DNA of 64,000 nt from Pectobacterium zantedeschiae (GTDB lineage: Bacteria > Pseudomonadota > Gammaproteobacteria > Enterobacterales > Enterobacteriaceae). The translations under genes and the position numbers were made by a program. Below, piece by piece: positions 3,822 through 7,013 of the stretch (positions within the stretch are counted from its first letter, which is position 1; each line of letters opens with the position of its first letter). The stretch is taken from NCBI RefSeq assembly GCF_004137795.1, contig NZ_NWTM01000001.1, positions 496,001 to 560,000 of the forward strand, given 5' to 3'. The notes under the pieces are model-generated. The model did not search any database, was not told where the DNA came from, and saw only the letters and a program-made list of their open reading frames with translations.

Positions 3822-3848
3822 TAAAGCTTTTGAAAAGCGTTCCGATAA
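3822..3848 (+). promoter_or_regulatory. Sigma-28 promoter of flagellin gene 1
   Basis: TAAAGCTT (3822-3829), 11 bases, TCCGATAA (3841-3848), each one mismatch from the consensus TAAAGTTT / GCCGATAA. It lies 73 bases before the flagellin ATG. The leader differs from those of genes 2 and 3 in its middle part. Confidence 0.9.
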
Positions 3849-3921
3849 ACAAATACAACGGGGATGACCCCGTAGGTCTAACCCGAATTTATGTCTTCTC
3901 ATTGATAAAGGAACGCTTATC

Positions 3922-4797
3922 ATGGCATCGATTAATACTAACATCATGTCTCTGGTTACCCAGAACAACCTGAACAAATCACAATCTTCTCTGGGCACCG
4001 CTATTGAGCGTCTGTCTTCTGGTCTGCGTATCAATAGTGCAAAAGACGATGCTGCTGGTCAGGCGATTGCCAACCGTATGACAGCGCAGGTTAAAGGCCT
4101 GACTCAGGCTGCGCGTAACGCGAACGACGGTATCTCTCTGACGCAGACTGCAGAAGGTAACCTGAACGAAATCAACAACAACTTGCAGCGTGTTCGTGAG
4201 CTGGCAGTGCAGGCGGCAAGTGATACCAACGGTAGTACTGACCGTACTTCAATCTACACTGAAATGAAGCAACGTCTGGACGAAATCGACCGTGTTGCTA
4301 AATCAGCCTCTTTCAACGGCACGAACCTGCTGGATGGCACGGCAAGCGGCGGCATCAACATTCAGGTTGGTGCAAACACCGGTGCTAACGAAGTTATCAC
4401 TATTGACTCTGGAGCGCTGGTTAACGCGACGACTTCTGGTGCTGGCTTGGCTTCAGGCGTTTCTACCGCTGTTGATGCAATCAGTGGCGGTACTGGCACT
4501 ATCGGTGGTTCTGGTGGTCTGGCTGCAACAATTATTAGCAGCGTTGATACTGCACTGAAAGCGGTAGATACCGCTCGTAGTAACCTGGGTGCGATCCAGA
4601 ACCGTTTCGAATCCACGATCACCAACGTGAACAACACGATCAACAACCTGTCTAACGCCCGTGGCCGAATTCAGGATGCGGATTATGCGGTGGAAGTGTC
4701 GAACATGACCAAGGCGAACATTCTGCAACAGGCCGGTACGTCAGTGTTGTCTCAGGCGAACCAGGTTCCTCAGACCGTTCTGTCTCTGCTGCGTTAA
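3922..4797 (+). CDS. fliC: Flagellin, tandem copy 1
   Basis: 291 residues. The N-terminal [20 protein letters not shown] and C-terminal [13 protein letters not shown] are the D0/D1 helices that pack the filament core. There is almost no D2/D3 domain, so this is a short flagellin (E. coli has about 498 residues); the only variable stretch is about residues 165-215, rich in Gly, Ser, Thr and Ala ([15 protein letters not shown]). AAGGAACG precedes the ATG. It is the first of three tandem copies, each with its own sigma-28 promoter and terminator. Export should use FliS; Ser/Thr residues of the surface are the probable targets of the neighbouring glycosylation genes. Confidence 0.96.
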
Positions 4798-4822
4798 TCG
4801 TAAGCAATACAGTGTGACGCTA

Positions 4823-4848
4823 AAACCCAGCCAGATGCTGGGTTTTTT
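4823..4848 (+). terminator. Terminator of flagellin gene 1
   Basis: Stem AACCCAGC / GCTGGGTT with loop CAGAT, then a T run, 26 bases after the stop codon. Confidence 0.88.
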
Positions 4849-4897
4849 CTTTCCGAAATAAATATTTTAAATAAAAAAACACATATAGACAAAAAAT

Positions 4898-4924
4898 TAA
4901 AGATTTTGAAAAAGGTTCCGATAA
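4898..4924 (+). promoter_or_regulatory. Sigma-28 promoter of flagellin gene 2
   Basis: TAAAGATT (4898-4905), 11 bases, TCCGATAA (4917-4924). It is 72 bases before the ATG. The leader that follows is almost the same as that of gene 3. Confidence 0.9.
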
Positions 4925-4996
4925 TTAATAAGGACGGGGATGAGCCAATGAGCTGAACCCGACATTTAACATCTCATTGATTAAGGAACGCTTATC

Positions 4997-5884
4997 ATGG
5001 CATCGATTAATACTAACATCATGTCTCTGGTTACCCAGAACAACCTGAACAAATCACAATCTTCTCTGGGCACCGCTATTGAGCGTCTGTCTTCTGGTCT
5101 GCGTATCAATAGTGCAAAAGACGATGCTGCTGGTCAGGCGATTGCCAACCGTATGACAGCGCAGGTTAAAGGCCTGACTCAGGCTGCGCGTAACGCGAAC
5201 GACGGTATCTCTCTGACGCAGACTGCAGAAGGTAACCTGAACGAAATCAACAACAACTTGCAGCGTGTTCGTGAGCTGGCAGTGCAGGCGGCAAGTGACA
5301 CCAATGGTCAAACTGACCGTGGTTCAATCTACACTGAAATGAAGCAACGTCTGGACGAAATCGACCGTGTTGCCGGCTCAGCCTCTTTCAACGGCACGAA
5401 CCTGCTGGATGGCACGGCAAGCGGTGGTATCAACATTCAGGTTGGTGCAAACACCGGTGCTAACGAAGTTATCACTATTGACTCTGGAGCGTTGGTTAAC
5501 GCTAAAACATCTGGCGGTCTGTCATCTGGCGTATCTAGTGCTGTTGCAGCAATCAGTGGAACGACTGCAAGTGGTGCGGTAACCGGCATTGGTGGTGACG
5601 ATGGTCTGGCTCAAAAAATTGTTGATGCCGTCGATACTGCGCTGAAAGCGGTAGATACTGCACGTAGTAACCTGGGTGCGATCCAGAACCGTTTCGAATC
5701 CACGATCACCAACGTGAACAACACGATCAACAACCTGTCTAACGCCCGTGGTCGAATTCAGGATGCGGATTATGCGGTGGAAGTGTCGAACATGACTAAG
5801 GCGAACATTCTGCAACAGGCCGGTACGTCAGTGTTGTCTCAGGCGAACCAGGTTCCTCAGACCGTTCTGTCTCTGCTGCGTTAA
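4997..5884 (+). CDS. fliC: Flagellin, tandem copy 2 (most divergent centre)
   Basis: 295 residues. Its first about 100 and last about 75 residues are identical to copies 1 and 3. The central stretch is its own: [20 protein letters not shown] followed by a [17 protein letters not shown] segment, where the other two have [21 protein letters not shown] sequence. It also has GQTDRGS instead of GSTDRTS and AGSASF instead of AKSASF. The same ribosome site and leader (GGAACGCTTATC before ATG) are used. It may be co-incorporated with the other flagellins or dominate under other conditions; the sequence does not say which. Confidence 0.96.
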
Positions 5885-5908
5885 TCGTAAGCAATATGAC
5901 ATGAAATT

Positions 5909-5934
5909 TAACCCAGCCAGGTGCTGGGTTTTTT
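5909..5934 (+). terminator. Terminator of flagellin gene 2
   Basis: Stem AACCCAGC / GCTGGGTT with loop CAGGT and a T run. It differs from the gene 1 hairpin by one loop base. Confidence 0.88.
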
Positions 5935-5983
5935 CTTTTTGAAGCAGATGTTTTTGAATAAAAAAGATGGATAGACAAAAAAT

Positions 5984-6010
5984 TAAAGGTTTTAAAAAAG
6001 GTTCCGATAA
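5984..6010 (+). promoter_or_regulatory. Sigma-28 promoter of flagellin gene 3
   Basis: TAAAGGTT (5984-5991), 11 bases, TCCGATAA (6003-6010), 72 bases before the ATG. Confidence 0.9.
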
Positions 6011-6082
6011 ATAGTAAGGACGGGGATGAGCCAATGAGCTGAACCCGACACTTAACATATCATTGATTAAGGAACGCTTATC

Positions 6083-6961
6083 ATGGCATCGATTAATACC
6101 AACATCATGTCTCTGGTTACCCAGAACAATCTGAACAAATCACAATCTTCTCTGGGCACCGCTATTGAGCGTCTGTCTTCTGGTCTGCGTATCAATAGTG
6201 CAAAAGACGATGCTGCTGGTCAGGCGATTGCCAACCGTATGACAGCGCAGGTTAAAGGCCTGACTCAGGCTGCGCGTAACGCGAACGACGGTATCTCTCT
6301 GACGCAGACTGCAGAAGGTAACCTGAACGAAATCAACAACAACTTGCAGCGTGTTCGTGAGCTGGCTGTGCAGGCAGCAAGTGATACCAACGGCAGTACT
6401 GACCGTACTTCAATCTACACTGAAATGAAGCAACGTCTGGACGAAATCGACCGTGTTGCTAAATCAGCCTCTTTCAACGGCACGAACCTGCTGGATGGCA
6501 CGGCAAGCGGCGGCATCAACATTCAGGTTGGTGCAAACACCGGTGCTAACGAAGTTATCGCTATCGACTCTGGCGCACTGGTTAATGCGACGACGACTTC
6601 TGGTGCTGGCTTGGCTTCAGGCGTTTCTACCGCAGTTGCTGCAATCAGTGGCGGTACTGGCACTATCGGTGGTTCTGGTGGTCTGGCTGCAACGATTATT
6701 AGCAGCGTTGATACTGCACTGAAAGCGGTAGATACCGCGCGTAGTAACCTGGGTGCGATCCAGAACCGTTTCGAATCCACGATCACCAACGTGAACAACA
6801 CGATCAACAACCTGTCTAACGCCCGTGGCCGAATTCAGGATGCGGATTATGCGGTGGAAGTGTCGAACATGACCAAGGCGAATATTCTGCAACAGGCCGG
6901 TACGTCAGTGTTGTCTCAGGCGAACCAGGTTCCTCAGACCGTTCTGTCTCTGCTGCGTTAA
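6083..6961 (+). CDS. fliC: Flagellin, tandem copy 3
   Basis: 292 residues. It is nearly the same protein as copy 1: differences are one extra Thr (TTTSGAGL), Ala for Asp in STAVAAIS, and Ile-Ala for Ile-Thr in EVIAIDSG. D0/D1 helices are intact. Its promoter, leader and post-stop sequence resemble those of copy 2, whereas its central coding region resembles copy 1, so the array is a mosaic. The glycosyltransferase gene follows after a terminator and a 353-base gap. Confidence 0.96.
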
Positions 6962-6980
6962 TCGTAAGCAACATGACATG

Positions 6981-7013
6981 AAATTTAACCCGGCCATGTG
7001 CCGGGTTAAATTT
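6981..7013. terminator. Terminator of flagellin gene 3
   Basis: Long symmetric hairpin with arms AAATTTAACCCGGC and GCCGGGTTAAATTT around a 5-base loop, without a long T run but able to act on both strands. Confidence 0.8.

Follow-up and report, generated by a model that had tools for sequence, protein, structure and literature searches.

Three flagellin genes lie head to tail in the window analysed here, the whole stretch of 64,000 nt from Pectobacterium zantedeschiae, and they very probably represent a tandem fliC array that was inherited as such, in which the coding ends have been homogenised, the variable centres have kept to their positions, the centre of copy 3 has been overwritten, and all three genes are likely transcribed by sigma-28 and their products co-assembled. 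The open reading frames bear out the three complete genes of 291, 295 and 292 residues that an earlier note on this DNA had proposed, all on the + strand; at least two co-directional, adjacent, full-length flagellin genes define a tandem multi-flagellin array, and all three copies are of this kind. The host genome comprises 5.06 Mb in 13 contigs, and the array lies wholly within a contig of 3.25 Mb. On the left it is flanked by a gene that we take, from its place adjoining fliC, to be fliD, whose product has its nearest named match in P. peruviense (95% amino acid identity, in a named collection that may omit this species' own or very near records). On the right, domain matches revealed a 1,234-residue glycosyltransferase with a family-2 domain, followed by a second family-2 transferase, a DegT-type aminotransferase, a hexapeptide transferase and a WcbI-like protein, and then by a third transferase on the opposite strand and a 240-residue sigma factor. 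Judged from this gene content, the block from 7367 on is likely a flagellin glycosylation island with the large glycosyltransferase as its first gene; islands of this sort have been described between fliC and fliA (PMC4875605).

Features of the fliC array and its flanks (positions in the window)
Feature	Position	Strand	Basis
fliD (filament cap), left flank, name presumed	2207..3595	-	ORF call
Sigma-28-like promoter, copy 1	3822..3848	+	exact pattern match
Leader type A, as in single-copy relatives	3849..3921	+	sequence comparison
fliC copy 1, 291 aa, centre alpha	3922..4797	+	ORF; Pfam Flagellin_N and Flagellin_C
Terminator-like site (hairpin and T-run) after copy 1	4822..4846	+	terminator scan
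Sigma-28-like promoter, copy 2	4898..4924	+	exact pattern match
Leader type B, copy 2	4925..4996	+	clusters with the copy 3 leader and with those of P. carotovorum copies 2 and 3 (support 100)
fliC copy 2, 295 aa, centre beta	4997..5884	+	ORF; Flagellin_N
Post-stop patch of copy 2 in copy-3 form, likely conversion recipient	5885..5909	+	site pairing
Terminator-like site (hairpin and T-run) after copy 2	5910..5930	+	terminator scan
Sigma-28-like promoter, copy 3	5984..6010	+	exact pattern match
Leader type B, copy 3	6011..6082	+	same comparison as copy 2 leader
fliC copy 3, 292 aa, centre alpha in gamma's place	6083..6961	+	ORF; Flagellin_N
Copy 3 stretch all in position-1 state, putative minimum conversion tract	6590..6715	+	diagnostic sites
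Hairpin after copy 3, last-copy trailer type, without T-run	6987..7007	+	read from sequence, unscored
Large family-2 glycosyltransferase, right flank	7367..11050	+	ORF, domain match
Sigma-70 family factor, 240 aa, likely fliA (sigma-28)	19503..20225	+	domain match; name from size and place

Each copy is preceded by an exact match to the sigma-28-like pattern TAAAGNTT-N12-CCGATAA, which at up to two mismatches has six matches in the 64 kb compared with a shuffle mean of 0.52, six being reached in 0 of 100 shuffles. The claim that each gene has its own promoter thus holds, while that of a terminator for each is borne out in part: terminator-like sites follow copies 1 and 2, and the hairpin after copy 3 lacks a T-run; the terminator scan found three sites in total, which is no more than expected by chance (shuffle mean 4.1). 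With three exact promoter matches and terminator-like sites after copies 1 and 2, a single operon of the Stenotrophomonas type would not, judged by sequence, describe the array. Phase variation of the Salmonella type relies on two unlinked flagellin loci, one used at a time via an invertible promoter, and by layout and promoters the window does not follow it, the copies being adjacent and each having its own promoter match on the same strand. Strong structure in the 5′ UTR was likewise unsupported (z-scores of −0.88, 0.20, −0.67 and −1.46 for four leaders against shuffles). The leaders at 3855-3945, 4931-5020 and 6017-6106 can form an outer CGGG/CCCG stem in both leader types, while the inner stem differs by type (GACC/GGUC in A, AGC/GCU in B), with energies not clearly beyond those of shuffles.

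Among the window copies, different segments pair different copies. The centres of copies 1 and 3 agree against copy 2 at 56 of the 68 informative sites, as the earlier note had observed, while the leaders of copies 2 and 3 agree against copy 1 at 30/36 sites. The note had extended the latter pairing to the sequence after the stop codon, which is correct up to site 904 (9/10 sites); from site 910, however, copies 1 and 2 agree against copy 3 (3/4 sites to 925, plus the spacer beyond), a pattern that the note had not described. A uniform identity profile would have spoken against a mosaic, and was not found: like-patterned sites fall into 32 runs, compared with a mean of 79.8 and a minimum of 59 in 20,000 permutations. 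Applied to the copies of P. carotovorum, this test gave a weaker result (72 runs against a mean of 92.4, with 5 of 20,000 permutations as low), so that abrupt breakpoints, as expected of concerted evolution, are seen by the runs test in both sets of copies. A minority of centre sites (10/68, several at 478-504) pair copies 1 and 2, and those at 478-504 may mark a further small conversion patch.

An array at the same place and with the same flanks was found in P. carotovorum DSM 30168 (G010; three copies) and P. peruviense IFB5232 (G016; at least two copies). Through a Flagellin_N search of 25 genomes of the genus, the window genome included, near-identical neighbouring fliC copies were found in three, namely the window genome, G010 and, by implication, G016, and in none of the 11 single-contig genomes. 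In G010, two copies share a contig and the third lies at one edge of a separate contig, which runs into the same glycosyltransferase, whereas in G016 two contigs end inside fliC, one with fliD and the other with the glycosyltransferase. The G010 contig edges that follow copy 2 and precede copy 3 (the ends of L033 and L034) both carry AGCCTAGTGCT; they look like the ends of an insertion, presumably of an IS4-type element, with a shared 11-base target within the copy 2 terminator region and the element itself outside both contigs. As read from these edges, this fits copies 2 and 3 being adjacent with an insertion between them. Contigs also end beside fliC in P. fontis M022 (G014; 73 bases past the stop) and G009 (254 bases ahead of the start), so that these two genomes may hold further copies.

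The same survey yielded several other flagellin observations. Two unlike flagellins lie about 6 kb apart in G002 and about 2 kb apart in G007, where the pair consists of a divergent flagellin of 484 aa and the usual fliC of 278 aa, both on one strand (L042, 5101-6549 and 7916-8734). The fliC of G021 (L045, 5973-6862) shifts frame near the C end, so that its protein is seemingly interrupted. A separate Flagellin_N match of 101-111 bits occurs in 12 of the 25 genomes (e.g. G001:C1:2847156 and G008:C1:1229161), with frames of 486-504 aa in 11 of those 12, at least 48 kb from fliC or on another contig; this search did not find such a match in the window genome.

To resolve the pairings, nine gene copies were aligned: the three of the window, the three of P. 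carotovorum, two partial ones of P. peruviense (the first used in all but the C and N+C trees, the last in all but the leader, N and N+C trees), and the single fliC of G001. Leaders are ordered by position as A, B, B. Type A comprises the first copies and G001, and leaders of single-copy genomes of the genus are mostly A-like; type B unites copies 2 and 3 of the window with those of P. carotovorum (support 100). Out of about 100 leader sites, 20-27 separate copy 1 from copies 2 and 3 of its own genome, compared with 3-4 between either of the latter and its positional counterpart. Because copies 2 and 3 of P. carotovorum share type B and single-copy leaders are mostly A-like, the pairing of leaders 2 and 3 against 1 is a relic of duplication; as P. 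carotovorum has these leader types at the corresponding positions, we rejected it as a sign of conversion. The centres sort by position as well. An alpha group contains the first copies of the window, P. carotovorum and P. peruviense, together with window copy 3 (support 89; window copies 1 and 3 grouping at 90), a beta group the second copies of the window and P. carotovorum (100), and a gamma group P. carotovorum copy 3, the last copy of P. peruviense and the gene of G001 (95). The inner trailer type is likewise common by position between species, and the last-copy trailer type is shared by window copy 3, G001, P. carotovorum copy 3 and the last copy of P. peruviense.

The coding ends, in contrast, sort by genome, above all at the N end. 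Over the first 279 bases, 0-2 sites differ among the window copies and 1-2 among those of P. carotovorum, versus 7-8 when window copies are compared with their P. carotovorum partners, and 6 when the first window copy is compared with that of P. peruviense. Synonymous divergence, calculated for nine chosen pairs without the copy 2-3 pairs, showed an N-end dS of 0.000-0.030 within genomes (four pairs) against 0.077-0.144 between them (five pairs), and a C-end dS of 0.032-0.100 within against 0.138-0.237 between, with one 26-codon between-genome piece at 0.052. The window copies group together on the N end (support 93) and on the joined N and C ends (98), and weakly on the C end alone (58), as do the P. 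carotovorum copies on the joined ends (52). Paralogues are therefore closer than orthologues, at synonymous sites too, for the N end of both the window genome and P. carotovorum, which is the mark of concerted evolution, and this signal is less strong at the C end and in the tree for P. carotovorum.

Two exchanges appear specific to the window genome. At diagnostic sites, copy 3 is position-1 like at 18/18 numbered centre sites and at 1/1 C-end site, and position-3 like at 4/4 trailer sites; it retains leader B and the last-copy trailer despite its alpha centre. From this distribution, the gamma centre of copy 3 looks to have been replaced by the alpha centre of copy 1. Of 348 centre positions, 14 distinguish copy 1 from copy 3, and 29-35 distinguish either of them from the first copies of the other two species; the exchange therefore looks younger than the species split, although the alpha centre of copy 3 could instead have been imported from another strain. 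After the stop codon, copies 2 and 3 pair at 892-904 (copy-3 numbering) and again at 916, while copies 1 and 2 pair at 910, 915 and 920; at most of these sites, copy 2 of P. carotovorum pairs with copy 1. Because window copy 3 and the last P. peruviense copy are nearly alike there (2/51 differences), window copy 2 is the likely recipient, and its first 25 post-stop bases look to have taken the copy-3 form in a window-specific conversion. As each event has two breakpoints, conversion is preferred over a single unequal crossover. Hence the proposal that crossing similarity arose by gene conversion is supported for the coding ends (best at the N end), the copy 3 centre and the copy 2 post-stop patch, and gives way to inherited duplication for the leaders.

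On function, the copies may serve surface diversity, or may be kept only for more flagellin transcript, with no effect of the differing centres; the latter is a possible though not favoured account, compatible with the inherited, homogenised array. The promoter matches are all intact, the ends are near-identical, and in the centres of positional partners dN lies well below dS (0.012-0.033 against 0.25-0.46, four pairs), so that these centres look constrained, which also argues against fast antigenic change at present. Such dosage alone sits poorly, however, with distinct centres being kept by position in two lineages.

Evidence on copy-number change comes from G001, whose single fliC combines leader A, centre gamma and the trailer of the last copy. 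Its structure suggests the product that a crossover between copies 1 and 3 ahead of the centre would leave. The prediction that copy number changes readily thus gains indirect support from one gene carrying the array's two outer junctions, and no such change was observed within a species. In a tree of fliTSD, the window joins P. peruviense (support 100; 92.2% nucleotide identity over the stretch) and G001 joins P. carotovorum (96). A glycosyltransferase tree shows the same two pairings (80 and 76), and gyrB and parE agree by identity among the four genomes (94.8% and 93.4% for window and P. peruviense; 94.4% and 94.4% for G001 and P. carotovorum). Based on the fliTSD pairings, the array is older than the split between these two pairs, and contraction is the best reading of G001. 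The locus has possibly moved between lineages, and if arrays moved sideways, G001 could represent the unduplicated state. That the array formed once and then travelled with the fli locus, leaving G001 with a single ancestral gene, draws on a fliEF segment tree that disagrees with fliTSD, since it unites G001 with P. carotovorum (100) but places P. peruviense beside G018 (84) and apart from the window, and on a gyrB+parE tree with more species, in which single-copy G023 stands beside P. carotovorum (94) and P. fontis weakly beside G001 (55); extensive exchange is also described for flagellin islands (PMC4875605). We nevertheless consider this unlikely, as the same two pairings by identity are given by fliTSD, the glycosyltransferase, gyrB and parE alike; the fliTSD tree was taken as the relevant one because G023 and P. 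fontis carry much more divergent fliTSD (78-80% to the four genomes).

Near-identical N ends within each genome could also result from an independent, recent tandem duplication in each species, with the mosaic produced by chance divergence and constraint, an alternative left open for tandem fla genes of Alteromonadales (PMC6053082). This is highly improbable here, given that leader B and the beta centre are common by position between species, as is the inner trailer type, and that first leaders stand far from those of copies 2 and 3, which nearly match their positional partners. Repeats this similar can break assemblies, and P. peruviense contigs do end inside fliC, but an assembly artefact can practically be discounted, because the copies differ by position-specific sequence common to other species and all lie on one large contig.

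For the inherited array, the likely ancestral order would be leader A - alpha - leader B - beta - leader B - gamma - last-copy trailer. Homologous exchange between copies would hold the D0/D1 ends near-identical within a genome, most clearly at the N end, while the centres remain position-specific across species, this genome excepted. Here, a non-reciprocal exchange probably put the alpha centre into copy 3, which would leave three genes encoding two filament variants. Given the promoter matches, sigma-28 transcription of all three genes is probable; the three flagellins are predicted to co-assemble into one filament, which may be modified by the adjoining glycosylation genes. The same homology would permit the array to contract, as G001 suggests. 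A more speculative idea, to which we give little credence, is that the array serves as a recombination store, partly hidden in draft genomes, in which conversion moves surface centres between copies with different leaders, so that filament surface and copy number change while motility is kept; if true, the surface change would touch glycan sites and contacts with phages and hosts. The array illustrates, position by position, the evolution of tandem surface-protein genes: the ends have been homogenised, the centres have stayed distinct, and one centre has been overwritten after the species separated. It also indicates that draft Pectobacterium genomes can yield too low a fliC copy number when a contig breaks off within or next to fliC, a point of importance for studies counting flagellin epitopes per genome.

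To place the array more widely, we searched 99 genomes of the GTDB family, one per genus, of which 58 carried flagellin (match to the window flagellin at E <= 1e-30). Co-directional arrays, counted by eye as genes on the same contig and strand within about 3 kb, were found in 12/58, the window genome included; this count contains a degenerate array with stops in G052, a genome given as 49% complete, and pairs in G033, G066, G084 and G092 at only 37-42% identity to the query, perhaps of another flagellin type. At least three copies were found in the window genome, G106, G117 and the degenerate G052. In six of the 11 remaining arrays, 12 of the 13 pairs are more similar at the N end than in the centre, and G058 departs from this (centre 100%, ends 92-94%); we did not adopt shared ends with differing centres as a rule for tandem flagellin genes at large. 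Ungapped C-end values of G106 copy 1 (29-30%) look misaligned and were left out. G106 (L095) has four and G117 (L096) three flagellin genes, with the N end more alike than the centre in every pair.

The fleA, fleB and fleC genes of Yersinia enterocolitica lie in tandem, a likeness to the window in layout. As this enterobacterial trio is described, and is there FliA-regulated (PMC2262085), and 12/58 genomes have arrays, the earlier view that a co-directional triplet is unusual was too strong. Stenotrophomonas maltophilia also has three tandem genes, fliC1C2C3, whose single and double mutants are impaired in swimming; they form one operon with products 67-82% identical, whereas the window has a promoter match per copy and near-identical ends (PMC8998449). 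Similarly, two tandem fla copies of Alteromonadales are among the genes reported under recurrent concerted evolution, and the independent duplication left open there is spoken against here by the positional leaders and centres (PMC6053082). Duplicated flagellins occur in a plant-associated Pseudomonas as fliC-1 and fliC-2, the latter with low expression and little conservation of its promoter, whereas all three window promoters match the pattern (PMC9927476). Extra fliC copies are noted in Erwinia, Pectobacterium and Agrobacterium, in passages that give neither array structure nor recombination history (PMC11161748). No description of this array was found in titles and the starts of abstracts, a search that lay mostly outside subscription journals and is no proof of absence. 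The array is therefore a well-resolved case of a known kind, and its new part is a history, read by position, in which duplication can be told apart from conversion and from contraction.
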